The notes beneath the pieces are model-generated. The model was not told the origin of the DNA. It saw nothing but the letters and a program-made list of their open reading frames with translations, and did not search any database. A stretch of DNA of 64,000 bases from Burkholderia sp. GAS332 (lineage in GTDB: Bacteria; Pseudomonadota; Gammaproteobacteria; Burkholderiales; Burkholderiaceae): contig FSRV01000001.1 of assembly GCA_900142905.1 (NCBI GenBank), forward strand, positions 2,604,001-2,668,000, written 5' to 3'. Within the stretch, counting starts at the first letter, position 1. Each line of letters starts with the position of its first letter. Shown here one piece after another: positions 6,094 to 26,500 of this stretch. Both the position numbers and the translations under genes were made by a program.

Positions 6094-7416
6094 ATGAAAC
6101 CAGCCCTCAAACACGCGTTGACAGCGGTTAGCGTCGGCGCTGCCGCATGCTTTTCGATAAGCTCGTCGGCGGCGACTGTGACAATTGCCACGTTGAACAA
6201 TCCGGACATGATCGAACTGAAGAAGCTTTCGCCCGCTTTCGAGCAGGCGAATCCGGACATCAAGCTGAACTGGGTGATTCTCGAAGAAAACGTGCTGCGC
6301 CAGCGAGCGACCACCGACATCACAACCGGTAGCGGCCAGTTCGATGTGGTGACGATTGGCGCGTACGAGACGCCGCAATGGGGCAAGCGCGGTTGGCTTG
6401 CGCCGATCTCGGGCCTGCCCGCCGATTACGATCTGAACGACGTCGTGAAGACGGCCCGCGACGGTCTCTCCGCCAACGGCCAGTTGTACGCGCTGCCGTT
6501 CTACGTCGAAAGCTCGATGACGTACTACCGCAAGGACCTATTTGCGGCCAAGGGCCTGAAGATGCCCGATCAGCCGACTTACGACCAGATCGCGCAATTC
6601 GCCGACAAACTCAACGACAAGGCCAGCGGTGTGTACGGCATCTGTCTGCGCGGCAAGGCGGGCTGGGGCGAAAACATGGGGTACGCGACGACGGTGGCGA
6701 ACACCTTCGGTGGTCGCTGGTTCGACGAGAAGTGGAACGCGCAGCTTACGTCGCCGGAATGGAAGAAGGCGATGACGTTCTACGTCGACCTGCTGAAGAA
6801 AGACGGCCCTCCGGGAGCGAGCTCGAACGGCTTCAACGAGAACCTTACGCTGATGTCGTCGGGCAAGTGCGCGATGTGGATCGACGCGACGGTGGCGGCC
6901 GGCCTGCTCTATAACAAACAGCAGTCGCAGATCGCCGACAAGGTAGGCTTCGCCGCGGCGCCGATCGCGGTCACGCCGAAGGGTTCGCACTGGCTGTGGG
7001 CGTGGGCGCTGGCGATTCCGAAATCGTCAAAGCAACCCGACTCGGCGAAGAAGTTCATCGCGTGGGCCACGTCGAAGCAGTATATCGAACTGGTTGCCAA
7101 GGACGAGGGCTGGGCTTCGGTGCCGCCGGGCACGCGTCAGTCCACCTATGCGCGCCCCGAGTACAAGCAGGCCGCACCGTTCGGCGACTTCGTGCTGAAG
7201 GCGATCGAAACGGCGGATCCGGACCACCCGACGCTCAAGCCGGTGCCGTACACAGGCGTGCAGTTCGTCGGTATTCCCGAGTTCCAGTCGTTCGGCACCG
7301 TGGTCGGTCAGAGCATTTCCGGCGCTATTGCCGGCCAGACGACGGTCGATCAGGCGCTCGCTGCCGGCAACGCCGCCGCGGATCGCGCGGTGAAACAGGC
7401 TGGCTATCAGAAGTAA
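6094..7416 (+). CDS. Polyol ABC transporter substrate-binding protein (SmoE/MtlE-like)
   Basis: This is the periplasmic receptor of a CUT1-type ABC importer for sorbitol/mannitol/arabitol. It has 440 residues with a typical signal peptide (MKPALKHALTAVSVGAAACF, cleavage near SSSAA). The mature start VTIATLNNPDMIELKKLSPA and the YALPFYVESSMTYYRKDLF region match family 1 extracellular solute-binding proteins. The start at 6094 is supported by AAAGGAGACGACAA upstream. It is followed by two permeases, a phosphatase and the ATPase, a complete importer. Two hairpins downstream probably protect its mRNA. Confidence 0.9.
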   Translation: MKPALKHALTAVSVGAAACFSISSSAATVTIATLNNPDMIELKKLSPAFEQANPDIKLNWVILEENVLRQRATTDITTGSGQFDVVTIGAYETPQWGKRGWLAPISGLPADYDLNDVVKTARDGLSANGQLYALPFYVESSMTYYRKDLFAAKGLKMPDQPTYDQIAQFADKLNDKASGVYGICLRGKAGWGENMGYATTVANTFGGRWFDEKWNAQLTSPEWKKAMTFYVDLLKKDGPPGASSNGFNENLTLMSSGKCAMWIDATVAAGLLYNKQQSQIADKVGFAAAPIAVTPKGSHWLWAWALAIPKSSKQPDSAKKFIAWATSKQYIELVAKDEGWASVPPGTRQSTYARPEYKQAAPFGDFVLKAIETADPDHPTLKPVPYTGVQFVGIPEFQSFGTVVGQSISGAIAGQTTVDQALAAGNAAADRAVKQAGYQK

Positions 7417-7438
7417 AGCATCGGTCACGCATGACGCA

Positions 7439-7503
7439 GCCACGTTAGTAACGTGGCATGCGCCTGCTTACGGCAGTCAGCCGGCCCACGCAGCATAGTG
7501 GGC
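7439..7503 (+). other. Two intercistronic hairpins between binding protein and permease genes
   Basis: GCCACGTT (7439-7446) and AACGTGGC (7450-7457) form a perfect 8-bp stem with a 3-nt loop. GCCCAC (7484-7489) and GTGGGC (7498-7503) form a second 6-bp stem. No T-run follows either, so they look less like full terminators than like mRNA-stabilising or attenuating structures, which often raise binding-protein output over permeases in ABC importer operons. Confidence 0.5.
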
Positions 7504-7582
7504 TGTTCCCGGTCGCGCGCGCGGTGCCAGGTTTAGCAGTCTCCAGCGGACAACCCGCGCATTACCGAACAGGTGGTCAATC

Positions 7583-8518
7583 ATGCGTCCTCTGCGCCTA
7601 CCTCTCATGCATGCCCATCCCCAGACAGAAAAAGAACGCGAAACCCGCAAAGCCAATTCCGCCCGCTGGCTCGTCTCGCCCTCGGTCGCGGTACTCGTGC
7701 TGTGGATGGCTATTCCGCTGGCGATGACGATCTGGTTTTCGTTCTCGCGCTACAACCTGCTGAATCCGGATCTCAAAGGCTTCGCCGGATTCGACAACTA
7801 CAAGTATCTGGCCACCGATCCTTCATTCGGACCGTCGATCGGGCACACCCTCGAACTGATTATCTCGGTGCTGGTGATTACGGTGGTCGGCGGCGTGCTG
7901 ATGGCGATCCTGTTCGACCGCAAGTTCTACGGACAGGGCATCGCGCGGCTGCTGGCGATCGCACCGTTCTTTGTGATGCCGACAGTCAGCGCGCTGATCT
8001 GGAAGAACATGATCCTGCATCCGGTGTATGGCCTGATCGCCCAGGGCATGCGCGCGATCGGTCTGCAGCCGATCGACTGGTTCGCCGATTATCCGTTGAC
8101 GGCAGTGATCATGATCGTCGCGTGGCAATGGCTGCCGTTCGCGTTCCTGATTCTGTTCACCGCGATCCAGTCGCTCGATCAGGAGCAGAAGGAAGCAGCG
8201 CGCATCGACGGTGCGGGTCCGTTCTCGATGTTCTTCTACATCACGCTGCCTCACCTGAAACGGGCGATCGCGGTGGTGGTGATGATGGAGACGATTTTCC
8301 TGCTGTCGATCTTCGCCGAAATCTATACGACCACGGGCGGCGGTCCGGGTACCGCGACCACCAATCTGTCGTACCTGATCTATTCGCTTGGCCTGCAACA
8401 GTTCGACGTCGGCCTTGCTTCGGCAGGCGGCATTCTGGCTGTGGTGCTGGCTAACATCGTGTCGTTCTTCCTCGTGCGGATGCTCGCGAAGAACCTGAAA
8501 GGGGAGTACGAAAAATGA
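7583..8518 (+). CDS. Polyol ABC transporter permease (SmoF/MtlF-like)
   Basis: An inner-membrane subunit of the CUT1 importer with 311 residues and six hydrophobic segments, beginning VAVLVLWMAIPLAMTIWFSF. The EAA loop that docks the ATPase is visible as EAARIDGAGPFSMFFYITLP. ATG 7583 has AGGTGG 6 nt upstream; an in-frame ATG eight codons later is the alternative. The stop overlaps the next permease start by 4 bp (ATGA), so the two are translationally coupled. Confidence 0.9.
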   Translation: MRPLRLPLMHAHPQTEKERETRKANSARWLVSPSVAVLVLWMAIPLAMTIWFSFSRYNLLNPDLKGFAGFDNYKYLATDPSFGPSIGHTLELIISVLVITVVGGVLMAILFDRKFYGQGIARLLAIAPFFVMPTVSALIWKNMILHPVYGLIAQGMRAIGLQPIDWFADYPLTAVIMIVAWQWLPFAFLILFTAIQSLDQEQKEAARIDGAGPFSMFFYITLPHLKRAIAVVVMMETIFLLSIFAEIYTTTGGGPGTATTNLSYLIYSLGLQQFDVGLASAGGILAVVLANIVSFFLVRMLAKNLKGEYEK

Positions 8519-9390
8519 GCCACGTTGCCTCTACACCGGCGTCGAGCACGACGTCCATTACTGTGCCGGCCAAGTCGCCGTTCGACGCGATTCGCCGCGG
8601 CATTCCCGGCGTGATCGCATGGCTGGTCGCGCTACTGCTGTTCTTCCCGATCTTCTGGATGACGATCACCGCGTTCAAGACGGAGCAGCAGGCCTATTCG
8701 TCGTCGCTGTTTTTCATCCCGACGCTCGATAGCTTCCGCGAGGTGTTCGCGCGCAGCAATTACTTTGCGTTCGCGTGGAATTCCATCCTGATCTCGGCGG
8801 GCGTCACGGTGCTGTGCCTGATTCTCGCCGTGCCGGCCGCGTACGCGATGGCCTTCTTTCCGACGCGCCGCACGCAGAAAGTCCTGCTGTGGATGCTGTC
8901 GACCAAGATGATGCCGTCGGTTGGCGTGCTGGTGCCGATCTATCTGTTGTGGAAGAACAGTGGCCTGCTCGATTCGGTGTCCGGTCTGGTGATCGTCTAC
9001 ACGCTGATCAATCTGCCGATTGCGGTGTGGATGTCGTTCACATACTTCGCGGAAATTCCGCGTGACATTCTTGAAGCAGGCCGGATCGACGGCGCGGCGA
9101 CGTGGCAGGAAATCGTCTATCTGCTGATGCCGATGTCGCTGCCGGGGCTTGCCTCCACCGCGCTGCTGCTGGTGATCCTGTCGTGGAACGAAGCGTTCTG
9201 GAGCATCAACCTGTCGAGTTCGAACGCGGCGCCGCTGACTGTGTTCATTGCGTCGTATTCGAGTCCTGAAGGCTTGTTCTGGGCCAAGCTCTCTGCTGCT
9301 TCACTGCTTGCGGTTGCGCCGATCCTGATTGTCGGCTGGCTGTCGCAGAAGCAACTGGTGCGCGGTCTTACCTTTGGGGCGGTCAAATGA
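8515..9390 (+). CDS. Polyol ABC transporter permease (SmoG/MtlG-like)
   Basis: The second permease of the importer has 291 residues and six hydrophobic stretches, the first being VIAWLVALLLFFPIFWMTIT. Its coupling loop ILEAGRIDGAATWQEIVYLL is the EAA motif. It starts inside the end of the previous permease (ATGA overlap) and its own stop overlaps the following phosphatase in the same way, showing tight coupling. MalG-type subunits sit in this second position in CUT1 operons. Confidence 0.9.
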   Translation: MSHVASTPASSTTSITVPAKSPFDAIRRGIPGVIAWLVALLLFFPIFWMTITAFKTEQQAYSSSLFFIPTLDSFREVFARSNYFAFAWNSILISAGVTVLCLILAVPAAYAMAFFPTRRTQKVLLWMLSTKMMPSVGVLVPIYLLWKNSGLLDSVSGLVIVYTLINLPIAVWMSFTYFAEIPRDILEAGRIDGAATWQEIVYLLMPMSLPGLASTALLLVILSWNEAFWSINLSSSNAAPLTVFIASYSSPEGLFWAKLSAASLLAVAPILIVGWLSQKQLVRGLTFGAVK

Positions 9391-10088
9391 CCGCAGGTAC
9401 GACGGTAGGTCATTTCGCGCTGATCTGCGATTGCGACGGTGTGCTGATCGACAGCGAAGCCGTGGCGGCGAGCATGCTGGTGCACGAACTCGAGGCGCGT
9501 TGGCCCGATGCCGATGTCGAGCCGGTGGTGCTGCCGCTGCTTGGCTTGCGCATTGAAACGGTGTTGCAGGGCACGGCGGCGAAACTGGGCAGGAGCCTCA
9601 GCGTCGAGGATATCGAGGCGATCCGCCGGGCGGTGGAAGCAGCGGCGATGCAGGCGCCGGCGGTCGTTGGCATCGAGGTTGCGCTCGCGCAGGTGCCGCT
9701 CACCAAGGCATGCGCGAGCAACAGTTTCCGGCCGTATGTGGAGAACGTTCTGGTGCGCACGGGCCTCGTGAAGTTCTTCGGCAACCGGCTCTTTTGCGCC
9801 GACGCGGTGCCGAATCCGAAGCCCGCGCCCGATGTCTATCTCGCCGCAGCGCTTGGTCTCGGCCTCACGCCGTCTGCCTGCCTCGTGGTGGAAGACAGTG
9901 TGACGGGCGTGACGGCGGCAACCGCGGCGGGCATGACGGTGCTGGGCTTTATCGGCGGCGGCCATGCGAGTGACGCGCAGATCGACGCCTTGCATGCGGC
10001 GGGTGCGCGGACTGTATTCGACGACATGCTGCAGTTGCCAGACCTGGTCGCGCAATGGACGCTGAGCGCGACGGCGGCGACGCCGTAA
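9387..10088 (+). CDS. HAD-superfamily phosphatase / beta-phosphoglucomutase-like
   Basis: A 233-residue haloacid-dehalogenase-type hydrolase. Motif I is CDCDGVLIDSE (nucleophile D15, acid/base D17), the motif III Lys lies in PNPKPAPDVYLAAA, and motif IV is VVEDSVTGVTAATAAGM. An alpha-helical cap lies between motifs I and II. It overlaps the upstream permease by 4 bp, so it belongs to the polyol operon. Homologues in such operons are proposed to remove unwanted sugar phosphates; the substrate is not evident from sequence. Confidence 0.85.
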   Translation: MTAGTTVGHFALICDCDGVLIDSEAVAASMLVHELEARWPDADVEPVVLPLLGLRIETVLQGTAAKLGRSLSVEDIEAIRRAVEAAAMQAPAVVGIEVALAQVPLTKACASNSFRPYVENVLVRTGLVKFFGNRLFCADAVPNPKPAPDVYLAAALGLGLTPSACLVVEDSVTGVTAATAAGMTVLGFIGGGHASDAQIDALHAAGARTVFDDMLQLPDLVAQWTLSATAATP

Positions 10089-10158
10089 GCGCGGCCGCGT
10101 AGGCGCAGCACCTGGATAAATGAATTGACGTAGCAAGAGCAACATACGGAGACACATC

Positions 10159-11268
<1,110 letters not shown>

Positions 11269-12579: not shown

Positions 12580-13533
12580 TCAGGTCTGCGGACGCGAAAC
12601 TCTGGTTCGACGGGCCGACGGGGATTTTTCACGGGCCTTCAATTGCCCTTGTAACAACGCAACCTGCTGAGCCAGACCATCGCGTTCGTGCCGCAGGTCA
12701 CGGGCTTCCTGCGTGACGCGATCGTGCAGCTTCTCATGCCGCTCGGCAAGGCGCCTTTGTTCGGCGGCGTCCGCCGATATCCGCTCGACGTCGCCGACAA
12801 GCTGCTCTTTGCGCTTCCGGACCTCGGAGAGCGCAGCCTCCGCCCGGCGTTGCGCATCACGTGCCTCTTCGGTCTGTAGCATGACGCGTTTCTGGACACC
12901 TTCGAGCCGCGCCGTCGCACGGTCGACCTCTGCACGCAAGGCCGCTTCATGTTCGGCGTGGGTGGCTCGCAACGTTTCAACTTCGCGACGATGGTCTGAT
13001 CGCACGTCGCGTAGCGCCTGCTCCGATTGCGCACGGACGGCGTCCCTTTCGGCCGCGGCTGCTTCGGCCAGCCGGAGCGCAGCGTCACGCCCGCCCTGGG
13101 TCTGCGCGAGTTCCGCAAGCACTGCGGCAAGTCGTGCCGGCTGGTCGTCAAGCTGACCGCGAACGCTGCGAAGTTCGGCCTGAAGTTCCGCATTGGCGGT
13201 CTCGAGTTTCCCGGCGCGGGTGATGGCGGCGGTCGCTTCCGCTTCGAGTTCGTCACCACGTTGCGCAAAGACCCGTTCGCCTTGCTCGACTGCGAGCGCC
13301 CACACCGACAGCATCGCATCGGCCACCGCCGGCGGCAGTGCTGCGGCAAGCGCGTCGTTGCGCGTCTGCTCGTCCTTCCACAGTTTCAGCTCGTCATTGA
13401 TGGTGGTGCGGCTGCCCTGGCGGATTTCCGCGTAGATCCGATCAACGGTGAGCTCATGCGGGAGCCGGCCCGATGCGACCAGTTGCGCGGCAGCTTTCCG
13501 GGTACGGATGCGGGTGTCGCTAATTCGGCTCAT
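12580..13533 (-). CDS. KfrA-type DNA-binding coiled-coil protein
   Basis: A 317-residue protein. Residues 1-105 resemble the KfrA N-terminal DNA-binding domain (RKAAAQLVASGRLPHELTVD, then YAEIRQGSRTTINDELKLW). Residues about 108-295 form a long Ala/Glu/Arg-rich coiled coil, and the tail is basic. KfrA proteins are plasmid or island proteins that bind their own promoter. It is transcribed away from the tyrosine recombinase, and the 178-bp gap holds palindromes it might bind. This divergent recombinase/KfrA pairing recurs at mobile-region borders in Burkholderiales. Confidence 0.85.
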   Translation of the reverse strand: MSRISDTRIRTRKAAAQLVASGRLPHELTVDRIYAEIRQGSRTTINDELKLWKDEQTRNDALAAALPPAVADAMLSVWALAVEQGERVFAQRGDELEAEATAAITRAGKLETANAELQAELRSVRGQLDDQPARLAAVLAELAQTQGGRDAALRLAEAAAAERDAVRAQSEQALRDVRSDHRREVETLRATHAEHEAALRAEVDRATARLEGVQKRVMLQTEEARDAQRRAEAALSEVRKRKEQLVGDVERISADAAEQRRLAERHEKLHDRVTQEARDLRHERDGLAQQVALLQGQLKAREKSPSARRTRVSRPQT

Positions 13534-13602
13534 GGGTGGAATCTCACCGTGAAAAGTGGCTTAAGAGGGCTTGCACCGAGAAATCAAATTGATATATCAC
13601 AG

Positions 13603-13662
13603 TATAACGTTATATACATAACGATGCGAGGCAGAAATTTGTGATAACGCCCATAATCACAA
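13603..13662. promoter_or_regulatory. Palindromes in the KfrA/recombinase divergent promoter
   Basis: TATAACGTTATA at 13603-13614 is a perfect 12-bp palindrome. TTGTGAT at 13639-13645 pairs with ATCACAA at 13656-13662 across 10 nt. Both lie in the AT-rich intergenic region between the divergent genes, the expected place for KfrA autoregulation. Binding is inferred. Confidence 0.45.
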
Positions 13663-13711
13663 GTTCTGGTCGTGTACGCTGCGAAAAGTCCATTCGAAAA
13701 CGCGTCACACC

Positions 13712-14881
13712 ATGAGCCTGCCTATTACCGCCCCAGAATCGCCCGAGACCATCCTGTCGTTGGCGTTGCCTGCCGCCCTCGACGGGCGCGCGGGCACCAA
13801 TCGCGCACGCGGCGGTCACCTACAGATCGCGGCCGACACGGACGTGGAAGCCGTGCGCCTGTGGCTCGCGGAATATGCGGGCTCGCCGCACACGCTGCGC
13901 AGCTACCGGAAGGAGGCGGTACGCCTGCTGCTGTGGGCCACCCGGACGCTGGGCAAGCCGCTCTCGAGCCTGACGCGTGAGGATTTCCTGCTGTATGAGC
14001 GCTTTCTCGCGGCGCCCACGGGCGACTGGACCGATCCGGCCCGGCCGCGGCGAGGCGGCGCCCGGCGGCTGTTTGACGGCCCGCTGTCCGAGCGCAGCCG
14101 GCATCAGGCGCTCGGCATCGTGTCGGGGCTGCTGTCGTATCTGGTCAGCGCCGGTTATCTGGCCGGCAACCCGCTGGCGCTGCGGCGCCGGACGGGTGCG
14201 GCCGCGAGGCGCACGCCGCGGGTCGAGCGGTACCTGGATCATGCGCTGTGGGATCACGTGCTGGCCAGCGTCGAGCAGTGGCCGCGGCTCACCGCGCGCG
14301 ATCACCAGCACTACGAGCGCAGCCGCTGGCTGATCCGGCTGCTGTATCACACGGGGCTGCGGGTCTCGGAGGCGGCGAACGCAAAGGCGGCGGACTTCTA
14401 TCAGCGACGCGGCAGGTGGTGGCTGCACGTAGTCGGGAAGGGCGGCGCCGAAGGGGCGGTGCCGGTGAGCGCCGCGTTGATGGCAGACTTCGCGCGATAC
14501 CGGGTATTTCATGGGCTGGCACCGATGCCGTCGGGGAATGAGACAGCGCCTGCGGTGATGAGCGTCGCGGGCGACCCGCATAAAGTCCTGACGCCGGCCG
14601 CGGTCTACCTGATCGTCAAGGAAGTGTTTCGACGCGCGGCCGATATGCTCGGAACGGGCGACGTGGCCGGCGCTGAAACGCTGCGACGGGCATCGACACA
14701 CTGGCTCCGCCACAGTGCAGCGTCACATCAGGCTGATGCCGGGACGGACCTGCGTTTCATCCAGAAAAATATGCGTCACGCATCAATCCAGACGACCGGC
14801 ATCTATCTGCATGCTGAGGATGACCAGCGACACGCCGAAACCGTGCGCGAACAAGTCGATACCGCTCGACCGGGCTTCTGA
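13712..14881 (+). CDS. Tyrosine recombinase / site-specific integrase
   Basis: A 389-residue XerC/D-like recombinase. The SAM-like core-binding domain occupies residues about 40-155. The catalytic domain has R217 in HTGLRVSEAANAK, K243 in VVGKGGAEG, H330 and R333 in THWLRHSAASHQ, H356 in RHASIQTTGIYLH and the nucleophile Y365. All six catalytic positions are present, so it is probably active. It is divergent from KfrA. A decayed relative of its last 90 codons lies at 19674-19942, after the kinase/patatin cassette. Confidence 0.9.
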   Translation: MSLPITAPESPETILSLALPAALDGRAGTNRARGGHLQIAADTDVEAVRLWLAEYAGSPHTLRSYRKEAVRLLLWATRTLGKPLSSLTREDFLLYERFLAAPTGDWTDPARPRRGGARRLFDGPLSERSRHQALGIVSGLLSYLVSAGYLAGNPLALRRRTGAAARRTPRVERYLDHALWDHVLASVEQWPRLTARDHQHYERSRWLIRLLYHTGLRVSEAANAKAADFYQRRGRWWLHVVGKGGAEGAVPVSAALMADFARYRVFHGLAPMPSGNETAPAVMSVAGDPHKVLTPAAVYLIVKEVFRRAADMLGTGDVAGAETLRRASTHWLRHSAASHQADAGTDLRFIQKNMRHASIQTTGIYLHAEDDQRHAETVREQVDTARPGF

Positions 14882-15485
14882 CGTGGGCAAAATACCGACC
14901 CTCCACCGAACACCCGCCGATTCCCGCAAAGACCGTTGCCGCCCCGCAGCCCAACCGCCCCGAATACCGGGATCGACACGCAAGGCTCCGGTTACGTCGG
15001 CGCCATCCAGCGAAACTGCGGCATGGCAGAAGAAGCGGTCTAGGCGCGATGGAAACGGAAACTCGCGTCGGGAAAAGCAAACAGGAGGGGGCGGGCGAAA
15101 GGGCCCAACCTTTCCGCTCATCGGCGCGCTGATGCGTTACGACCCGCGCAATGTGCGTGCACGCCGAACCGAGCGGCCAGCATGTGATCATCGAGTCGGT
15201 CAATGCGAACGGCAGCATCTTCTGAAGCACCGAAAATGCATTTGCCGGAGCGCACTTCGCAATCAGCGCTTTTGAGCGATAACGATGCAGCCAACCGAAG
15301 CAGGCAGATCGCGCTCTCTGTCGACATGACATCGACACGACCGCGGGCGCGCTGGCGCCATTCGAGGACAACACCGGTTCGAAACCGGGGGCGACCTGCC
15401 TTCCGTCGTCCGAATGTGGAGCATTGATGGCAAAATATGGGTTGGCAATAGCATACACATCCGAGCGAATGGCACGCGGAAGACT
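14882..15485. other. Gap after the recombinase; no gene recognised
   Basis: About 600 bp of GC-rich sequence. Open frames on both strands lack motifs and start signals. It includes a perfect 6-bp hairpin CCGGTT/AACCGG at 15374-15388 that superficially resembles a tRNA T-arm, without the rest of a tRNA. It could hold the recombination site of the recombinase and the promoter of the following three-gene module; neither is identifiable by eye. Confidence 0.4.
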
Positions 15486-16379
15486 ATGACCACGCGAAAT
15501 GACCTACCCTCCGATCTAGCCGCGCTCGTCCAAAGGCCGCCAATTTACCGATTGCTGGGTGTGGGCGAAAAGGTTTACGGCGACCATCTCAATCACGTCT
15601 GGAAGGGCCTCGCGGGCGTGCCAGGACTGGATGAGCCAGGTATCCCAGTATTCGCAAAGTATCTTCCACGCCAGTCCCAGATCGACATCGAACTGGCTTG
15701 TGGTCTTGCCTCACAGGTCTTGCGATTACCCGTACCGAACCCGGCGCTTGTGATTGCGGACCTGGATGAACTGCCAAACCACCCCAATGGCCTTAAAAGT
15801 GGCCCTGTGCTGCTTTTTGGCAGTCTGTTTCAACCACCCGATCCATTCACGGTGCAACGGACGAAGGAGGGTGAGTTAGGAACGGAATACATCTGGCAGA
15901 AGGTATGTGAAAATGAGGTCGCCCCCCAAGGGGCGGCTTGGGACGAACTGGTGGCAAACCCCGACCGGCATGCGCAGAACCTGCTGTTCGATGGCGTCAA
16001 GTGGTGGTTATTCGATCATAACCTCGCTCTGCAGCCGCTTTCCGATCTGTATGCTTCGATCGGTGAGGCGAGTGCGCAGCGCAAGGTCGTGGACCACATC
16101 GCCCGGGTCAATCAGATTCTTTCGCAACTGAAAAGCAGGCACTCGGGCAACGAGGACATTCTCGAGGAAGCGGACAGGTTATCCAAACAGGCGAAAAAGC
16201 TTACGTTACTGGCCATCGAAATGCGAAAGTGGAAACTGGACGCCAGGATCGCTCCGATCATGATGATCGCTGCCACCATTGTTGATCTGATAGCGCTGCG
16301 TCTGAAGCCGCTGGGAATGTATCTGGAGCAACGGCTCGAAACGCCTACCGCTAATAATCTTTGGTCTTCTTCGTCATGA
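15486..16379 (+). CDS. HipA-like protein kinase (HipA_2-type), first gene of a three-gene module
   Basis: A 297-residue protein with the HipA/PI3K-like kinase core. There is a nucleotide-binding Lys K58 (VFAKYLPRQSQ) and a following Glu E69. The catalytic loop is NPDRHAQNLLF (N158, D160, H162, N165), and the metal-binding D177 lies in WWLFDHNLAL. It lacks the long N-terminal subdomain of true HipA. The C-terminus has a hydrophobic stretch (IAPIMMIAATIVDLIALRL) that may associate with membrane. GGAAG lies 5 nt before ATG 15486. The stop overlaps the next start (ATGA). No HipB-like antitoxin precedes it. Standalone HipA-like kinases of this type are commonly paired with a second gene; the function is unknown. 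Confidence 0.7.
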   Translation: MTTRNDLPSDLAALVQRPPIYRLLGVGEKVYGDHLNHVWKGLAGVPGLDEPGIPVFAKYLPRQSQIDIELACGLASQVLRLPVPNPALVIADLDELPNHPNGLKSGPVLLFGSLFQPPDPFTVQRTKEGELGTEYIWQKVCENEVAPQGAAWDELVANPDRHAQNLLFDGVKWWLFDHNLALQPLSDLYASIGEASAQRKVVDHIARVNQILSQLKSRHSGNEDILEEADRLSKQAKKLTLLAIEMRKWKLDARIAPIMMIAATIVDLIALRLKPLGMYLEQRLETPTANNLWSSSS

Positions 16380-17263
16380 ATATTTGGGAAAGCCCACCAT
16401 TTGCTGCGCTTGCTGCTCCCGTGCTATGGACGCCGACGGCTACGACGGGAGAGCGCTTCGTCGCCCTGATACTTGTTAAGTTTAAGTCGCCCAATCGCGG
16501 CGAGATCGCAACACCTATCGTCTTCCACCCCAAACAGCTTCGCGCGATGATTGGCGCGAAGCGGGCTGAGTCCGCCCTCGGAATCATGCACCATGTCGCG
16601 GAATTCATGCAGCAGCAGATGATCGCCGGTGCCGACTTCAACCAGGTTGTCGCGCCTTTCGACGGCTTCGATGTGGGTGCCACAACGAACATTAAGGGAT
16701 ACTCCGCCAAGCAGGTCGTCGACACCGCAATCCGGACGCTGTCGGCGTTTGGTACGAGATCGTACTTTGAAGACGACGAAGAGCAGGTTCAACGGAACTC
16801 GGTGCCGACCAGACAGTTCCTGAGATCGCTTCGATCAGTGTTTGCGCAGAACGATGATGAGCGTAGGGCGCGCTTCAATCGGACCATCGAGGTGGCCGGT
16901 GCGGCGGGCATGACGATCGACTATGCGCACGATAAACATCTGATACAGGTGACGAGTCTTCCACAAACGGCACCGCATCTCGCGGCCTTACAGAAAGAAG
17001 CGGAAAGTAAGATACTCGAACTGGACATCACCGCATCCATCCTTCGATCGAACGCCCCGGCGCAATCCGCGTTACTGATCAATACAGCGGCATTAATCAC
17101 GGCAAAGACCAAGGAAGCCAGTCAGATCGCCAACGAATTGCTGGCTCGCCTGCGGTTCATGAGCGGACAGAAAGGCATCGACCTTCGGCTGGTACGAGAC
17201 CCGTCTCAGGCTGCTCAGATCCTCGAAGAGTTGGAAGTAGGCCAGGGCCTGACGAATGCCTAG
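16376..17263 (+). CDS. Unknown protein coupled to the HipA-like kinase
   Basis: A 295-residue protein starting MNIWESPPFAALAAPVLWTP, then TGERFVALILVKFKSPNRGE. The early part is faintly reminiscent of DUF3037-type proteins that accompany HipA-like kinases, but I cannot confirm this. The second half is predicted helical with heptad-like spacing (residues about 200-280), suggesting an oligomerisation or partner-binding arm. It overlaps the kinase by 4 bp (ATGA) and the following small gene by 8 bp, so the three are translated together. It is probably a substrate, regulator or antitoxin of the kinase. Confidence 0.6.
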   Translation: MNIWESPPFAALAAPVLWTPTATTGERFVALILVKFKSPNRGEIATPIVFHPKQLRAMIGAKRAESALGIMHHVAEFMQQQMIAGADFNQVVAPFDGFDVGATTNIKGYSAKQVVDTAIRTLSAFGTRSYFEDDEEQVQRNSVPTRQFLRSLRSVFAQNDDERRARFNRTIEVAGAAGMTIDYAHDKHLIQVTSLPQTAPHLAALQKEAESKILELDITASILRSNAPAQSALLINTAALITAKTKEASQIANELLARLRFMSGQKGIDLRLVRDPSQAAQILEELEVGQGLTNA

Positions 17264-17444
17264 CTTCGATGCGGATGAACTGGAGACTTTCTCGTTCGGA
17301 TGTGTACGGAAAGCGGGAGGGATATCCGAACACGTTCCTCTCACATATCTGGCCGAAGCGGGCATCGAACCGTCGGTCGGCAGCCGGGGCGACATTGAAC
17401 CCCTCGGCTATATCCCGCCCGCCGAAGCTGAGGCAAACTGCTAA
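17256..17444 (+). CDS. Small 62-residue protein, third gene of the kinase module
   Basis: An acidic 62-residue frame (MPSFDADELETFSFGCVRKA at the start) whose ATG lies 8 bp inside the end of the previous gene. Its stop TAA interlocks with the stop of the convergent patatin gene (shared bases 17441-17444, CTAA). The overlap arrangement supports it being real. It has no recognised domain. It might be a small antitoxin, adaptor or phosphorylation target, which is inference only. Confidence 0.5.
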   Translation: MPSFDADELETFSFGCVRKAGGISEHVPLTYLAEAGIEPSVGSRGDIEPLGYIPPAEAEANC

Positions 17445-19531
17445 CGGCAACTTGAAACAGCTGCCGCTGAACCCGCATTAACTTGAACCAACCAGCCTCC
17501 ACGATTCCCGGGGCGGTTCAGCCCAGGTTGACCGTCGTCGTCTGGGACGCTTCCTGTGTCGGAAGGCATTGCTTCGCGTGCAGCGTGCAGCCCTGCATAA
17601 AAATAGGCGTTTACGAATTCTCGTGTGACCTGCTGATTCCGGGTAGGCTCGTGGGGAAACTTCTGGTCGAACGACGAACGCAGGCGTAGCCTCAACGGAT
17701 GCGATGCACCGACCGCCAGTTTGATGTAGATCAGCTCGCCGGTCGTACCATCTGGATAGGACACTGTTCCGCGATAAACACACTGGTCATGGCTATGGGT
17801 CTTCCCCGGCATCAGCCCCGGGATGGCAATCTCCGCGCGAAGATCCGTAAAACAGAGTGTCGCTGCCCTTGCGAGATCGACAAACTTGTATTCCGGATCA
17901 TGCCCGGCGTCGACTACGATGATGCTGGCGCAACGTCGACGCACGAGCTCGTAGACACCGAGATTTTCGAAATGGCCGCCGTCGCTCAGCCGTATCCATG
18001 TTCCTTTACCTGCCCAAGCACCCAGTGCGGCAAACAGGTTCAACAGGAGACTGGGCACGCCCTTTCGGAGATGAAATTTGGTGCTGGGATTAATGACCCA
18101 TTGCCCGAGTCCGATATTGCCAAAGCTCAACAAGGCGTTCAGCAATGGAGACTGACGTACCCCGTGCCCGTCAATTGCTGCTCCCGAGGTCGCCGCAAGC
18201 CGCCAGACATCAAGATGTCGTACTGTGTTGTCCAGCATGCGCCAGGATCGGGTCGGATATATGTCGGTCTCGTCCGATCCGCAGTGCAGCCGGGTGTTGT
18301 GGAAGTTGCAGCCACCGCGTTCCCGCACGTCGGGGTCATCGCTTTGACTGGAATGCTGGCAGCAATTGATGATATGGAGCGGCGCAGCGGGATCGGTTTT
18401 CGCCAGCAGAAGAGAGACGTTGTCTACCTTGCCGGTGAATCCTTTTCGAAGACTTGACGAATAGAGATTAAATGGAAAATTCAGCCAGTTTGCGCTGATG
18501 AAGTAGATTAACGCGGTCGCGGCCGAAAGGCCGAAGTAGAGAATAGGCGAGGCAAAGTAGCTGAAGCCTGCAAGCGTCACCATGATCGCGCTCACCGGAA
18601 AAAGCATAATTTTTGCGTAGGTCTGGATCTGGCGAATCCCTTTATGCCTGGGCAACTGAACGAGCAAGATAACAATAACAATGAACGCAGTGAGCAAGGT
18701 GACACTGACGAACCTTGATTGCAGCAGTTTCGTCATTATCAGTATGGTTTGCACCGCCTCTGCGAAGGTCACGGCCGCGAGAGTCGTCCACAGCATGACA
18801 TCGTTCTGGTCTTTTCTGTTCTGCCTCCACGCCCAGATCGCACAAAACAGGGTCGCGCTAAGAAATACGACAAGCAGAATCCATCCATCGTAGTGCGAGG
18901 CGCGGCGGCCCGGCGAATCGTAGCTCATGATGAACAGGCCCTGCTCGGCCAGCAGGAGCGGAGACAGAGATACGATCGCTGAAGCCAGGAAAGCCAGTGA
19001 CATCGTCAGTAGTCTTCCAAGGCCGGTTTCCAGATAGCCTTCTGACTGAAGGAGCCTCTCCCGTGCAGTTTCCGCACGTGACACCCGCTCGCTCGTGCCA
19101 TCCTGTACATCTTGGCCGTACAGATAGCTGGTGGCCGCATAGCCCCCCCCGGAAACGCTGGAAAGATAGTCGATCTCCCGCATCTTTTCGCTGTGTTCCA
19201 GCCAGCGCAGGACGCCCAGGCTGAAGCAGGCCGCCCGAATGCCCCCACCCGATAGTGCAAGACCGACAGTGCCGCCACTGTGGATACCCGCTTTCTTCCG
19301 ACGCCTGGAAATGTGATCGGCTTCCTCTGATTGTGCCTCGTATGCCGTGAGTTGTACCGGCGCATCGGGCACCGTGACGGCCTGCCGATATCGAACCAGC
19401 AGCATACATAGACCGACTGGCGGGACGGTGCACGAAATGACGAGGGCAAGTATCCACCACCAGGGAGGTGCGTCCTTGATCCTGATTTTATCTCCGGGCA
19501 ATGATTCGGCTTTCGGCATTTCTTGATTCAT
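17441..19531 (-). CDS. Membrane patatin-like phospholipase
   Basis: A 696-residue patatin-fold lipase split by a membrane insert. The N-terminal helix at about 24-46 (WWWILALVISCTVPPVGLC) is followed by the oxyanion motif LALSGGGIRA (95-100) and the nucleophile S127 in SSVSGGGY, with Ser at the first position of the usual GxSxG. A long section with about six hydrophobic helices (residues about 155-345) separates this from the catalytic Asp motif LSDGGHFENLGVYELVRRR. It is predicted to hydrolyse membrane lipids from within the inner membrane. ATG 19531 is preferred over GTG 19543. It converges on the kinase module inside the recombinase-flanked cassette, so an effector role is possible. Confidence 0.8.
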   Translation of the reverse strand: MNQEMPKAESLPGDKIRIKDAPPWWWILALVISCTVPPVGLCMLLVRYRQAVTVPDAPVQLTAYEAQSEEADHISRRRKKAGIHSGGTVGLALSGGGIRAACFSLGVLRWLEHSEKMREIDYLSSVSGGGYAATSYLYGQDVQDGTSERVSRAETARERLLQSEGYLETGLGRLLTMSLAFLASAIVSLSPLLLAEQGLFIMSYDSPGRRASHYDGWILLVVFLSATLFCAIWAWRQNRKDQNDVMLWTTLAAVTFAEAVQTILIMTKLLQSRFVSVTLLTAFIVIVILLVQLPRHKGIRQIQTYAKIMLFPVSAIMVTLAGFSYFASPILYFGLSAATALIYFISANWLNFPFNLYSSSLRKGFTGKVDNVSLLLAKTDPAAPLHIINCCQHSSQSDDPDVRERGGCNFHNTRLHCGSDETDIYPTRSWRMLDNTVRHLDVWRLAATSGAAIDGHGVRQSPLLNALLSFGNIGLGQWVINPSTKFHLRKGVPSLLLNLFAALGAWAGKGTWIRLSDGGHFENLGVYELVRRRCASIIVVDAGHDPEYKFVDLARAATLCFTDLRAEIAIPGLMPGKTHSHDQCVYRGTVSYPDGTTGELIYIKLAVGASHPLRLRLRSSFDQKFPHEPTRNQQVTREFVNAYFYAGLHAAREAMPSDTGSVPDDDGQPGLNRPGNRGGWLVQVNAGSAAAVSSCR

Positions 19532-19673
19532 GCAGGTAGTCACGAGAATCTATTACGGCAGGACGGCCATCCGGCTTGAGCGGAGCGGCGATTGTCCCGC
19601 TCATTGGGGCGCGTTGGAGATTCGCAGCGGGTCAAGAGAGCGAGGGGAGGCGTACGTCGACCAGTGCAGACAT

Positions 19674-19942
19674 CTCACGCCGGCGGCGGTCTGCCTGATC
19701 GTGAAGAAAGTGTTTCAACGTGGCGCCGATATGTGTTAAGCGGGCGACGCGGCTGACGCTGAAGCGCTGCGACGTGCATCGACACTATGGTCGCGCCGCA
19801 GTTCCGCTTCACGTCAGCCCAATGCAGGCACCGACCTGCGCTTCATCCAAAAAAAGAACATACAGCACGCATCGATCTAGCCAGCCGGCATTTATCTTCA
19901 CGCTGAAGACAATCTGCGCCACGTCGAGGCCATGAGAGGGGA
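19674..19942 (+). pseudogene. Decayed second copy of the recombinase C-terminus
   Basis: Translation gives LTPAAVCLIVKKVFQRGADM, then C and a stop, then AGDAADAEALRRASTLWSRR, TDLRFIQKKNIQHASI with a further stop, and GIYLHAEDNLRHVEAM. This aligns collinearly with the last 90 codons of the intact recombinase (14588-14860), with about one fifth of positions changed, in-frame stops and an inserted codon. The HxLRH box has become LWSRR. It is a dead relative, not a recent duplicate. It closes the 4.8-kb kinase/patatin cassette on the right. Confidence 0.85.
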
Positions 19943-20695: not shown

Positions 20696-21127
20696 CTATT
20701 CGGGGTGTTCGCCGCCGCCTGCCCATTCACCCGTGATAAGCCAGTCTTCGAAATACCACAACCATTCGGCGGTCCACGCGATGTAGGTATCGGCAAGCTT
20801 CATCGCATGATTCCATTCTCGGCCTTTTGGATACCACAGGCAGAGTTCTGTTCGACCATTCTCGTGGCTGTAGATATGGGGTGGCCGTTTCCCATGGGCC
20901 ACAGCGACCAGGTCGGGATTGATCACATACAGTGATGGCCAGACGCCGCTGCGAGGCAAGACCAGCAGGCACCGGTAAAGCGGCGAGTACGCGGACGGTC
21001 CAATGGCGAACGAAAAACAGAGGTCGCGGCTGGGTCGCCAGAAGGTTTTTGATTCTGGCAGATGCAGACGACGAAGCTCGAGTTCTCGCTGGGCAAGCGT
21101 CGGACTACGCGGAGGCGGCGGTGCCAT
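20696..21127 (-). CDS. CBASS E2-like conjugation protein (type II-short)
   Basis: A 143-residue E2-like protein. The signature of the short CBASS E2 family is clear: HIYSHENGRTELCLWYP with the presumed catalytic C96, then NHAMKLADTYIAWTAEWLWY, FEDWLITGEWAGGGEHP. In type II CBASS the E2 module conjugates or primes the CD-NTase to raise nucleotide-messenger synthesis. No E1 (Cap2 adenylation domain) or JAB protease (Cap3) gene is present, hence type II-short. It overlaps the CD-NTase stop by one base (TAATG), so it is translationally coupled to it. The proline-rich first 10 residues are atypical, but the overlap supports this start. Confidence 0.85.
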   Translation of the reverse strand: MAPPPPRSPTLAQRELELRRLHLPESKTFWRPSRDLCFSFAIGPSAYSPLYRCLLVLPRSGVWPSLYVINPDLVAVAHGKRPPHIYSHENGRTELCLWYPKGREWNHAMKLADTYIAWTAEWLWYFEDWLITGEWAGGGEHPE

Positions 21128-22383
21128 TACCTACCGAAGAATCTGTGCTGCCGCGACGGGATCACTAGGGGCGCTGGCGCCCCGGTGAACAGTCGCGCTT
21201 TTCCGGCCTCCCTTGTCGCTTGCTGCTCTGCGAACAGGGCATCGCGAACTGTGCGGCCAGACCTTGCGCCGAAGCCGTTTTCAACCGCGCTGACGACTTC
21301 GTTCATGCCGGCGCGCGCCTCAATGGCGTCGATGACCGCTTCGATGTCCTGCATGAGCTGCTCGATCCAGCGGTCGAAAGCGATCTGCCGCAGCGGGAGG
21401 TTCATCTCGGCCGCCAGGTTACTCTGCGGAGCCGCCGGATTGGGCAACCGCCATTCTTCGAGGCTCGCGCCAACCGGGATGCGTGCGAACAGTCTCGGCA
21501 TTGTTTCGACCACATCAAGCAGCAGATCCAGTGGCGATGCGTGCGCCTGCGGCGCCTGAATTGCGTATGCCTGCGCGGCAAGCGTCGTGATGAATACCGA
21601 GCTCGGCCGCAGATCAACCGTCCCGGACTGCGGCCCGAACCGGAAGTTGCGGTGCAGCTTGATGACCTGCACGAACCGGCACAGCAAGCGGTCAAAGACA
21701 TCCCGTGCGTTCGGCAGCGGGACGATATCCGCCTTGCGCACCGAATCCATCGCGGCGGTTATTTTCTCCATCAAGGGGAATCTGGGAGAAATGGCTGCCG
21801 CCTCGTTGAAAAAGCGCGTGTAGCCGCGCGGATTGGTCGACTCAAAGCTCTTCAAGCCCCTGTCGGGAATCAGGCCATGGGTCTCGCCATAGCGGATGGA
21901 GACGCGGGGACTGTCTATGACAGGTGCAATGTCTGCGCACATACCGCCAGCGTAATGCAGCGTAACGCATCGGTCGTGGCGCTGCAATTCCAGTTGATGT
22001 GCCCGGGCGTAGTCTGCCAGCGCGGTCTGAATCTGGTTCAGCAGGCGTGCAGGGCCCTCGTAGTCGGAATATCTGGACCAGGCAGCTTCACTGAAGCGGG
22101 CGATCAGGTCGACATCAAACCCGTTGCGCGAGTCGTCAATCGGCTTGGTCAACGTTCCAAGTTGCCGGGACCCGTGTGGATGAATCTGGATCAGCGTCTC
22201 CGCGAATTCTTCGCGCGCCGAGAGAAACTCTGCGGTGCTCTCATATGATGACGTCAATGCGTCGAGCTGCGTCGTGGTCGGCGTCTGATGTTCTGCCATC
22301 GCGTCGACCAATGCGAAGAAGCGTGTGGACGCGTCAGACGACAGGTTGTGCCGGCGCCGGATACTCACTTGGTCTCGAAGCAT
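21127..22383 (-). CDS. CBASS CD-NTase (cyclic oligonucleotide synthase)
   Basis: A 418-residue cGAS/DncV-like nucleotidyltransferase. The active-site helix and strand are visible as HGSRQLGTLTKP (G71-S72), then GFDVDLIARF (D90, D92), and the third metal-binding Asp is D151 in MCADIAPVID. The C-terminal helical domain is of the expected size. On phage infection such enzymes make a cyclic di- or trinucleotide that activates the effector. GAGGT lies 6 nt before ATG 22383. The E2-like gene follows with a 1-bp overlap, and the S-4TM effector is divergent across a 191-bp gap. Confidence 0.9.
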   Translation of the reverse strand: MLRDQVSIRRRHNLSSDASTRFFALVDAMAEHQTPTTTQLDALTSSYESTAEFLSAREEFAETLIQIHPHGSRQLGTLTKPIDDSRNGFDVDLIARFSEAAWSRYSDYEGPARLLNQIQTALADYARAHQLELQRHDRCVTLHYAGGMCADIAPVIDSPRVSIRYGETHGLIPDRGLKSFESTNPRGYTRFFNEAAAISPRFPLMEKITAAMDSVRKADIVPLPNARDVFDRLLCRFVQVIKLHRNFRFGPQSGTVDLRPSSVFITTLAAQAYAIQAPQAHASPLDLLLDVVETMPRLFARIPVGASLEEWRLPNPAAPQSNLAAEMNLPLRQIAFDRWIEQLMQDIEAVIDAIEARAGMNEVVSAVENGFGARSGRTVRDALFAEQQATREAGKARLFTGAPAPLVIPSRQHRFFGR

Positions 22384-22472
22384 TGCTGACCTCTATGGGG
22401 ACAAAATTGACCGTAAACTTCGATAAATTTTAACTAAGTGCAACTACATTTAGGGATATGTCGCCGTAATTT

Positions 22473-22489
22473 TACCAAGTATAGTGGTA
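22473..22489. promoter_or_regulatory. Small inverted repeat in the CBASS divergent promoter
   Basis: TACCA (22473-22477) and TGGTA (22485-22489) are separated by 7 nt inside the AT-rich gap between the divergent CD-NTase and effector genes. The position would suit an operator governing both transcripts, but no regulator gene is encoded next to the locus. Weak evidence. Confidence 0.25.
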
Positions 22490-22574
22490 TCGGCACAATT
22501 TGCATGCTGGAATTTGTTACCATGTGAAACGCGGCGTCGCCCGGAACGCCGGTAGATGAGAGGAAGCGAGCGCG

Positions 22575-23507
22575 GTGAATGAGATAGCCAGGCGGCAGAA
22601 TGAAAAGCAGATGCTCGCGGTGGCGTGGGAGCGCCGGCGCGTCTACGATCACGTCAAGGTAGTGCAGGGCATCCTCGTCATCGTGTCGCTTTTCATGCCG
22701 GTGCTGGGTGTGATCGTCGCAGTCTGGGCACAGAGCCTGAAACCGTATGTGGCGCTCGCGTCGCTGATCGTCGGCTGCACGGATGCCGCATTTGTCGACC
22801 GGTGGATCAAGCGGCAGATGAAGGAGGGCGCACGCCTGCAGGAACACTTTGACTGTTCCGTCCTCGAGTTGCCGTGGAACAGATTCCTCTCCGGCTCGCC
22901 CATCGACGCGGAAGACATCGCTGCATATCGGCAAACGTGCCCACCGGGCGACGGCGGAGCGATGCGCGACTGGTACGCGCCCAGCGTTTCGCGACTGCCA
23001 GTGCCTGCAGCCCGCCTTGCATGTCAGCGCTCGAATCTTCGATACGATCTGAGTCTGCGGCGGCGATATTGCACGATTGTCACCATTGCGATGGTTGTGG
23101 TCGTGGTTGCGGCTTTCGCCATCGCGGTAGTCCAGAACCCGTCCATGTCCTCGTTCGTCCTGTCGGGTGCCGTGCCCGTGATGCCCCTAGTACTCTGGGG
23201 CGTGCGCGAACGCAACCGCCAGCTGGATGCCAGCGCCCTTGTGGAGCGTCTGAAGGCGCACGTTGAGAAACTTTGGGAAAGCGTGCTGGCGGGCGCGGGT
23301 GACAATGTGCTGACTATGAGCTCACGAGAGCTGCAGGACGCGATTTTCAGCCATCGGGTGTCCAGTCCCCTCGTCTTCAATTGGCTGTATAGCCGGCTGA
23401 GAAGTGGGCTCGAGCAACAGATGGCAGGCGGTGTCGAGCATTCGGTTGATGAGTTCAGGGCAAGCGCATCGAAGCGCAAAACGCAACATCTCCCAGACGC
23501 TTCGTAG
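22575..23507 (+). CDS. CBASS S-4TM membrane effector
   Basis: A 310-residue protein of the S-4TM effector family. There are two pairs of transmembrane helices, at about 31-52, 57-74, 166-186 and 191-210. The conserved segment between the pairs reads GARLQEHFDCSVLELPWN (85-102), then RDWY and ARLACQRSNLRYD (146-158). On messenger binding such effectors are thought to disrupt the inner membrane and kill the infected cell. The GTG start has AGGAAG 8 nt upstream. It is divergent from the CD-NTase/E2 pair and completes the locus. Confidence 0.85.
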   Translation: MNEIARRQNEKQMLAVAWERRRVYDHVKVVQGILVIVSLFMPVLGVIVAVWAQSLKPYVALASLIVGCTDAAFVDRWIKRQMKEGARLQEHFDCSVLELPWNRFLSGSPIDAEDIAAYRQTCPPGDGGAMRDWYAPSVSRLPVPAARLACQRSNLRYDLSLRRRYCTIVTIAMVVVVVAAFAIAVVQNPSMSSFVLSGAVPVMPLVLWGVRERNRQLDASALVERLKAHVEKLWESVLAGAGDNVLTMSSRELQDAIFSHRVSSPLVFNWLYSRLRSGLEQQMAGGVEHSVDEFRASASKRKTQHLPDAS

Positions 23508-23567: not shown

Positions 23568-26500
23568 CTACGGTCGCACGTCTGACGGTTCTGACGCGTA
23601 CGATTGGCCGCTTACGTCGATGATTGCCACGGCAATCTGCCAACGCCGCTCCTGCGGGACCAGTTCGGTGATCTGATCCAGCATCGCGGATGCGGATTCA
23701 GCGCGGGTGGCCTCCGTCGGATGTGCGGGTGCGGGCCTGTGCTTCAGGTTCCCATACCAGAACACCGCGTACATCCCGTACCCGGCTGACCCCGGGTCGC
23801 GGGTGTACAGCCGGTCGAGCTGCGACACCGGGGCGGTCCAGACATCGGCGTGATAGTTCCGTTTGAGCTCCACGGGAATCCTGAGGTTGCGCCATATCAC
23901 CACGATGTCGGCCCGTTTGCCGTGGACCATGTGCCCCTCGGGCTCAACCGTGATCCCTTTCGGGTTGAGCCGTTCGCGCAGCAGATCAATCAGGACATCG
24001 CGGCCACTTTCCTCAGGTTTCGGTTCGGTGACCTTGCCATAGCCGTTCTCGTTCCAGAAGCGCTTGTAGATATTGTTGTTGGCGTTTGCGATCCGGTCAC
24101 CAACGTCCTGCATCGTGTCCACAAGCAGCGCATGAAAATCTGCGGCGTTGGCAGGCGCACCATTGGAGAGGGCGCTTACCGTCTCCGCCCAGTTCGGCTG
24201 CTGGTACTCGGCCTCGCGCCTGCGTGCCCGTTGCTCGGCTGCGGCGTGTAACAGATGATCGCGATATGTGCCGAGCGAGGCGTCGGTCGAAAGGCGGCCG
24301 AGAGCAGCCGTGGCGTCCGCGGTGATGTCCACCGCGATTTGGTTAATGAGCCGCCTGACGAATTCCGCTCCGTCCCACGGATTGCGATCGCCGTGACTGC
24401 CGCCCTCCGGATGGGCAGCATTGGGAAAGTGACCGGCGGCCGTAACGAGAAGGCGAGTCAGAACGGGGAGGGGAAGCATGCGGTTTTCACGGCGCGGCTG
24501 GGTGACATGGCCGGACAGATAGTCCCGCAGCGTCCAGACGAGACCGACATCTGTTGATGCTCGCGCGGTAAATTCCGATTCCAGCAGGGCCGGTTGCAGC
24601 AGGAACGCCGTGACCTGCCAGTGGGGAAAGGCACGTGGCGGCAACGCGCCCTCTGACAGACGCGCCTTGGCGAGTGCGGTGAATCCGGCGTGCGTCGTCG
24701 CGTCGGTGAGCACGACTTCCATCAGCCGCTCGAGGAAGTGAGCAGGCAGATCTGGATAGTTGGAGAGCACCTCCATGGTCACGGAGGTCCGGCACCACGC
24801 GAATGCGTCCATGGAAAGCAGTTCGCCAAGCCCTTCTACGTGTTCGTGCCGGGCGGCCATGCCCAGCCTCGCAACCTCGAGATAGGTGTCGCGCGCAAGC
24901 GCCCGTTTCGTCGAAATGAGTGCGGCTTTCCATTCGAACGTTTTGCGGCGCGATGTATTGCCGTCCCGCTCACTTGTTGGGGAGACGAGATCCACTGCCA
25001 GCGCGGCAGCAAGAAGTGGCTCCGGCAGTCCTTCGAGGCTGGCTTCCAGGCCCCATTGTGCGTCGAGTCCCGCGACGAGAGCCAGCCACCAAGTCGGTAT
25101 GGTCGCGCTCAGCGAAGCGTCACCGATGGCTGCGACATCAGGAATGTTCGTGCGTTCAAGTGCAGCGAGAAGTCCGGCGATGGCCGAATCAGCGAATGTG
25201 TCGCCGATGAAAGTAGCGAGTCGGCCGTGAGGTGAGAGGCTGTGGTCGATCTCGTGATATTTGCCGAGATAAACGTTGGCAACCCAACCGATCCAACCCG
25301 ACGCCAAACCGGACCGGATGGCCGCTTCGTGCCGCCCAAACTGCGCGATGAGATTCGCCCGCTCAATATCAGCCTGCTGGCGCCGCTCACGGCTGCGTCG
25401 GGCGTCGTTCTGTCTCCAGTCGAGAATTTCAGAAACGAGCATTGAATCTCTTCTTGCCTGCAGGTTCTTCTGCTCGCCGTAGTCAAAAAGGTATTCGAAG
25501 AATCCGGGCCGCTCCTGCGTTCGCGTGTACAACATCCACAGCGCGAACTCGTATGCGACCGGCAGGCCGGTGTCTTCGGGAGCGCCAGTGCGAAGGACGC
25601 GCACGGCCGTGTCGAGAAAATCGATATGCTCGACTGTGCCGGCCGTCATCCTCTGGAGCCGTTGCAGGAGTAGATAGACATTGGTATCGGCTGGGAGCGT
25701 GCGTAGCCCGTGCGCTACAGCGTTCAGGACGTCTGGCTTCCTCGCCGACAGGGCTTTCGCCAGGCCCGAATATGCCGTGAGTGAGGCCCGGTGGTCGCGC
25801 AATCCATCTAGCCAGTTCCAGAGGCTGTCAGGCGAAACAGGATGCCCACTTTTGAGCAGCCTGATGAGCATGAGGCTCAGAGCGTGCGACACGGGTGACT
25901 CGTTCTGTCGCAATGCGTCTGCTGCATCCAGCTCGGCAGGTGTCCGCATGCCGAGGATCGCAGGTATATCCTGCAGCGGAACGGCGTCCGCAAGATGCCA
26001 GAGATAAAGCCGCCCGCGCAGAGACTCGTCGGTGCGTTCAATCGCTTCCAGCAGCGCAACCACATCAATTGCGTGAAAGAGCCGGCCATAGGCGAGCGCG
26101 ATAACTTCAGCACGTAGTTGCAGGTCAGATGCGCCCCAGCTCAGATCGCGCGTGTATGCGCCGAGAACGGCGGCTTCGCCTTCCTGACCGCATTTCAGAA
26201 GCGCCGCTAGCGCATTTTCCCGCTCGAACGGCATGGCCCGGATGTCAATCATGACAGCAGCGATATCGTCCGTCAGGGTGACATCCGGGGTGCCGGCAGC
26301 CAGTGCCTCCAGCACGAGCGGACGTACCGGGTTGTCTGGAGCACGAAGAATCGAACGAAATTCGTCGGTCATCTCCGCACCGGTCATACCACTCAGGCGC
26401 TCACTTGGCGGCCGGCCGTCTCCTGACAGAAACCACGGATCGTCTACAGCCAGCGCCGCCAGTGCGCCCAGTAGACGGAGTCGGAGTGAGGACGAGAGGG

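Follow-up and report, generated by a model that had tools for sequence, protein, structure and literature searches.

In a 64,000-nucleotide stretch of the Burkholderia sp. GAS332 genome (assembly GCA_900142905.1, contig FSRV01000001.1, positions 2,604,001 to 2,668,000 of the forward strand; the whole stretch is called the window here), a gene for a HipA-like kinase is followed at once by a gene for a partner protein, and the two probably form a horizontally moving anti-phage module of the toxin–antitoxin type, a divergent branch of the systems named HipAD, DS-6 or PDC-M66. The pair, its conservation, the kinase motifs, the predicted fold of the partner and a patchy, mobile distribution are direct observations. 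An earlier interpretation made without database searches, the sequence-only reading, had joined kinase and partner to a 62-residue open reading frame (ORF) and a convergent membrane patatin as one undescribed abortive-infection system of four genes. The genome that holds the window measures 10.4 Mb, and the closest named relatives of the kinase–partner module are found in Paraburkholderia.

Conservation and distribution of the kinase–partner pair

Relatives of the pair were collected from two sources. A search with two peptide patterns taken from the kinase alignment, in which each species was represented by a single genome, yielded 12 confirmed genome loci, and nine further loci came from viral contigs in IMG/VR; kinases lacking those peptides escape such a search. 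The partner lies directly downstream of the kinase in 12/12 genome loci and 9/9 viral contigs (21/21), its gene being cut by the contig end in L053 and L058. Several viral loci are near-duplicates with identical or near-identical match values (L026 is paralleled in this way by L057 and L058, and L027 by L059), leaving about 18 distinct loci. An additional locus, L107 (around L011), likewise carries the pair, without a patatin and without the 62-residue ORF. Kinase and partner share a 4-bp ATGA overlap in the window; of the 19 loci in which the partner is complete, 15 show overlapping frames, the gap ranging from -32 to +17 with approximate starts. The distance matrices of the two proteins are strongly correlated (Mantel r 0.907, p 1e-4, n = 18, comprising the window and 17 loci with L053, L057, L058 and L059 omitted), the largest value among 9999 permutations being 0.57. 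These correlated distances indicate joint inheritance of kinase and partner and say nothing on function.

The module is accessory rather than core, because the partner occurs in just 9/299 genomes of the family, the window's own genome counted, and one of these nine (L017) is a mere 49-residue match near a contig start. All 12 genome loci presumably belong to Burkholderiales, to judge by the taxonomy of the named genera. Plasmid and phage records each yielded one partial, low-identity match to the kinase, and the partner had no match in the plasmid records.

The kinase

Eight residues of the kinase (K58, E69, D153, N158, D160, H162, N165 and D177) are invariant in 18/18 kinases of the family alignment, and we take them to be the catalytic and ATP-binding motifs of HipA-type kinases. 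The PADLOC model PDC-M66A is matched weakly by the window kinase (E 1e-5) and, at E values up to 0.1, by 17 of 19 family members, and HipA_2 is matched by 10 of the 19 in the same range, the best value being 8.7e-5 for P0051, whose score of 22.3 bits stays below the curated cut-off of 27. When the profile of the family was aligned with hhalign to kinases encoded beside DUF3037 proteins, the probability reached 96-97, with E values from 5e-9 (six kinases) to 5e-11 (15 kinases). On the strength of these matches the window kinase is classed as a remote HipA_2/PDC-M66A-type kinase, and it retains the motif residues expected of the HipA-family kinase in HipAD, DS-6 and PDC-M66. The sequence-only reading had described it as a HipA-type kinase lacking HipB, and this description holds, given the invariant motif residues and the PDC-M66A match as well as the gene's surroundings: neither the partner nor the 62-residue ORF has a helix-turn-helix domain, and the adjacent upstream gene encodes a recombinase.

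The partner protein

The second gene had been read as coupled to the kinase and unrecognisable, and both statements stand, since the gene keeps its place at all 21 loci and its product is not recognised by Pfam, PADLOC or NCBIfam. Prediction of its structure had been suggested as a check. An AlphaFold2 model of residues 2-295 (predicted local distance difference test, pLDDT, 82) has a nearly identical order of structural elements to a model of a DUF3037 protein along the whole length, and 0/1000 shuffles were as good. A fold search with the model assigned a PD-(D/E)XK/ERCC1-like fold to the C-terminal half, and the C-terminal half of the DUF3037 model likewise matches nuclease folds. We propose that the partner combines a DUF3037-like N-terminal part with a PD-(D/E)XK-like (ERCC1/XPF-type) C-terminal domain, as modelled, and that it would serve as neutraliser or sensor.

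Several results weigh against reading the pair as a divergent defence module of the HipAD kind. The PDC-M66A match of the window kinase covers just part of the model, and Pfam returned nothing for this kinase under E 0.1, with a single irrelevant match at E 0.12. The partner matched neither DUF3037, DUF1829 nor PDC-M66B, and DUF3037 and PDC-M66B matched none of 13 family members. Profile–profile comparison of partner and DUF3037 with hhalign gave a probability of 0.1-4%, the first comparison, with six DUF3037 proteins, being flat and a deeper one weak. The best Z score of the DUF3037 model, 8.8, is near background, and Foldseek found no match to the partner model passing E 0.001. No operator palindrome upstream of the kinase is conserved in nine upstream stretches, where only L022 beat nearly all shuffles, and no phage-challenge or toxicity result for this branch came up in the literature searched. 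In addition, no solved structure was matched by sequence to the kinase, partner or DUF3037 profiles, which makes no statement about fold.

The missing sequence matches and the low hhalign probability are what would be expected if the kinase were HipA_2-like and its partner belonged to an independent family, unrelated to DUF3037, that occupies the same slot. We regard this as unlikely, however, because the gene order is the same, the structural elements are nearly colinear over the whole length, and the profiles align better than those of mismatched families: the best global alignment of partner and DUF3037 profiles spans 266 columns at E 0.003, against 0.88 and 0.99 for mismatched pairs in the same mode, and the local alignment has E 0.014, against 0.48 and 0.27. 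As membership of DUF3037 is unproven by sequence, the pair is named HipAD-like, not HipAD.

The 62-residue ORF, the patatin and an insertion-sequence scar

The coordinates of the four ORFs, the 4- and 8-bp overlaps and the interlocked stops (patatin 17441-17443, 62-residue ORF 17442-17444) were all found in the sequence as described, the 8-bp overlap being that of the partner gene with the 62-residue ORF (Table 1). These overlapping frames and interlocked stops, together with defence genes nearby, are positional arguments for a reading in which the kinase operon, the small protein and the convergent patatin would act as one abortive-infection system. We hold this to be very improbable, given that the patatin, the 62-residue ORF, the CBASS (cyclic oligonucleotide-based anti-phage signalling system) cyclase, the 4TM effector and EruA were found near the kinase at 0/21 loci at E 1e-3, in genome loci of 17-21 kb and viral loci of 8-17 kb, with little sequence past the kinase in L053 and L058. 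The sequence-only reading had itself set co-occurrence of the patatin with the kinase module as a check beforehand, so that its four-gene system falls by its own measure, and the kinase pair moreover has a close published analogue.

Table 1. Features at and around the kinase–partner module, in window coordinates
Feature	Position	Strand	Details
HipA-like kinase gene	15486..16379	+	ATG 15486 to TGA 16379, 297 residues
Partner gene (gene 2)	16376..17263	+	ATG 16376 to TAG 17263, 295 residues
62-residue ORF, judged spurious	17256..17444	+	ATG 17256 to TAA 17444; 3' sequence of the module read through into a transposase remnant
Membrane patatin-like phospholipase, judged an unrelated neighbour	17441..19531	-	ATG 19531 to TAG 17441, 696 residues
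Module extent shared with the closest relative (L018)	15406..17338		89% nucleotide identity
IS3-type transposase (rve) remnant and insertion sequence end	17349..17524	+	compared with the L105 copy, lacks 137 bp internally
Tyrosine recombinase, open	13712..14881	+	389 residues; PF00589, E 3.5e-21
Tyrosine recombinase C-terminal piece, decayed, related to 13712-14881	19659..19937	+	93 residues align at 66% identity; interrupted by two stops

The interlock instead reflects an insertion sequence (IS). Window positions 17349-17394 and 17394-17524 are 100% and 94% identical, respectively, to two stretches of L105 that lie 137 bp apart there, in and just past an ORF with rve_3, rve_2 and rve matches (rve below its cut-off), a transposase integrase core that we take to mark IS3-type elements. 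Relative to that element the window copy is truncated and corresponds to the 3' part. In a comparison of just two sequences, the 62-residue protein aligns to the L105 transposase with E 5e-10, the alignment spanning the deletion and the second half of the protein being the remnant. On the opposite strand the same remnant encodes the last ~27 residues of the patatin (~670-696) and its stop, and these tail residues recur with internal stops in many match rows, several of them near contig ends. Because one IS remnant ends both the 62-residue ORF and the patatin, the interlocked stops are a scar of insertion and deletion and not joint design. The DNA of window 17340-17560 matches 15/40 genomes, a count that takes in the genome of the window, and one genome has 15 matches. 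The remnant at 17349-17524 matches repeatedly in G604, and at E 0.001 the genome of the window showed no second copy. The scar illustrates how an IS can make independent pieces resemble one interlocked operon, which calls for caution in reading defence islands.

The description of the third gene as a small acidic protein is borne out as far as the ORF is open and its product has a calculated isoelectric point of 4.1; as a real gene it does not hold. The short match to this ORF in L018 (E 0.001) stops after 7 codons, and the homology of L018 to the window stops just before the IS remnant. The transposase remnant in its second half and the 7-codon stop in L018 exclude the ORF as a gene or antitoxin.

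The patatin matches PF01734 above the cut-off (E 2e-7), with the motifs GGGIR at residue 95, SVSGG at 125 and SDGG at 516, which are conserved in L106; it contains hydrophobic stretches, including a region between the serine motif and the DGG motif. In a search that scored at most three candidates per genome, so that further relatives may escape, one of 298 family genomes (G051) held a near full-length relative (38-40% identity over residues 65-656), and the kinase pair is absent from 18 kb around it (L106). The remaining listed matches are partial, such matches being common, and derive from larger patatins or the IS tail. Among 40 plasmid records two, both rhizobial, cover at least 80% of the patatin at 27-29% identity, and a six-peptide pattern search of viral contigs found no relative. 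As a partner of the kinase the patatin is excluded by its absence from the 21 kinase loci, and we judge it an unrelated neighbour of the pair.

Surroundings of the pair

In the window the module and patatin lie, as had been noted, between an intact and a decayed recombinase copy. Beyond them come CBASS-like genes and a NACHT protein of the EruA type, which the sequence-only reading had given as CBASS and a STAND NTPase. To the left of the kinase module a KfrA_N protein is divergent from the tyrosine recombinase. This divergent pair spans window 12583-14881, and a counterpart occurs in L018 (7143-9650) in the opposite arrangement, the recombinases being 46% identical; such pairs are possibly a mobile element family carrying defence cassettes. 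The CBASS-like set at 20699-23504 comprises an E2-like protein, a SMODS/DncV-like cyclase and, in divergent orientation, an S_4TM effector. The 1347-residue NACHT protein at 23571-27611 scores 1053 bits with the NCBIfam model of anti-phage EruA, above the curated cut-off of 1000. Between 12000 and 24000 no Rfam RNA reached the gathering threshold, the window is without any tRNA that could provide an attachment site, and the repeats flanking the module amount to two short pairs, one direct and the other inverted.

Elsewhere, the neighbours were surveyed descriptively, without an enrichment test, with Pfam and PHROGs each applied to 10 selected proteins (one of them shared) out of 244 called ORFs. 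Two GmrSD_N proteins were found among the surveyed loci, along with KfrA_N and the related recombinase in L018, an integrase in L019, ResIII and SNF2 proteins in L020, a PIN protein in L021, a D12-class methyltransferase in L024 and, in L025, a non-adjacent HTH_3 protein ~1.9 kb upstream of the kinase. Phage genes accompany the pair in L026 (a RecT-like protein), L027 (a phage exonuclease) and L029 (a CI-like repressor and a DNA methyltransferase); the two proteins submitted from L028 gave no PHROG match. In L020 a 908-residue ResIII-domain gene (7270-10891) on the same strand ends ~10 bp 5' of the kinase, and this copy of the pair may therefore be part of a larger operon.

Several copies are found in phage-like regions, where genes for a repressor, a methyltransferase or recombination occur no more than a few kb away, a setting that addiction modules would fit too, and the pair could be an ordinary toxin–antitoxin or kinase-signalling module of mobile elements, devoted to stabilisation or the regulation of lysogeny, with no part in anti-phage defence. 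This account seems improbable to us, as the closest characterised relatives defend against phage, other copies lie near GmrSD or ResIII genes, and the window copy lies near CBASS-like genes. The pair is better described as a constant, mobile, partly prophage-borne module for which a defence role, by analogy, is plausible.

Proposed function

In PMC12548924, a HipA-like kinase and DUF3037 pair (PADLOC PDC-M66) defends against Bas51 without its retron; defence is lost on deletion of the kinase, and deletion of the DUF3037 gene is toxic. PMC13092281 describes DS-6, renamed HipAD, as a kinase with a DUF3037/DUF1829 protein, reports that a catalytic-residue change in the kinase abolishes defence and that AlphaFold3 predicts binding, and cites a paper whose title places HipAD in E. 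coli prophages. The window pair most likely works like these pairs, and its toxicity, neutralisation and defence would follow from the published relatives by analogy. The HipA-like kinase would be the toxic effector, halting growth and phosphorylating a target in the host that perhaps belongs to translation, and the co-translated partner would keep the kinase inactive and free it on infection; as a guess, the C-terminal nuclease-like fold of the partner could be the sensing part. Of the abortive-infection role in the sequence-only reading, defence by the kinase pair accordingly stays plausible, and the participation of the patatin does not. On a bolder view, which we consider doubtful, kinase and partner would stand for a class of phage defence of their own, kinase-based and unannotated. 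The partner, of nuclease fold and with an invariant set of pocket residues (D181, Q190, E207 and K211), would then sense the phage, and it would cage and release a HipA-type kinase whose target differs from that of known HipA toxins.

If the preferred reading of the pair as a two-gene defence module is right, the HipA-kinase/DUF3037 type of defence extends to a branch overlooked or only faintly recognised by the annotation libraries consulted here. The alignments made here provide a basis for new detection models, and the reading yields a prediction of roles, the kinase as toxin and the partner as guard, together with a fold for the guard.

Comparison with known systems

No publication describing this divergent branch was found in a search whose coverage largely excluded subscription journals. 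With HipBA and HipBST the window pair has in common a HipA-type kinase, presumably sharing the N-x-D-R-H motif; unlike them, it lacks a HipB-type helix-turn-helix partner and its partner lies downstream. The HipA/DUF3037 pair of Retron-Sda1 consists of kinase and partner, as here, and according to PMC12548924 defends without the retron reverse transcriptase or noncoding RNA. No reverse transcriptase gene was noticed among the listed neighbours of the pair, no profile test having been aimed at one; a crude scan of 22 loci for a YxDD-type motif gave long-frame matches in L020, L026, L029, L052 and L057.

Among the DUF3037 loci, L035 (758-2292) holds a pair whose kinase is barely HipA_2 (E 0.1) and shows weak PDC-M03A model matches, perhaps another divergent branch. 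Loci L036-L040 have short DUF3037 ORFs (~130-200 residues) that leave no room for a second domain, and each is preceded by an ORF of 257-310 residues that may encode a kinase.

The nearest counterpart is the system variously called PDC-M66, DS-6 and HipAD. In contrast to it, the window partner is unmatched by the three annotation libraries, the kinase is barely recognised and the genome loci presumably all fall in Burkholderiales. DS-6B is reported with a DUF1829 C-terminal domain; the window partner has no DUF1829 match, its C-terminal half has a predicted PD-(D/E)XK/ERCC1-like fold, and the C-terminal half of the DUF3037 model matches nuclease folds too. In common with it, the window pair is an accessory module of two genes, a HipA-type kinase first and the partner immediately 3', and the two partners resemble each other in length, in a predicted order of elements that is nearly the same and in a nuclease-like C-terminal fold.

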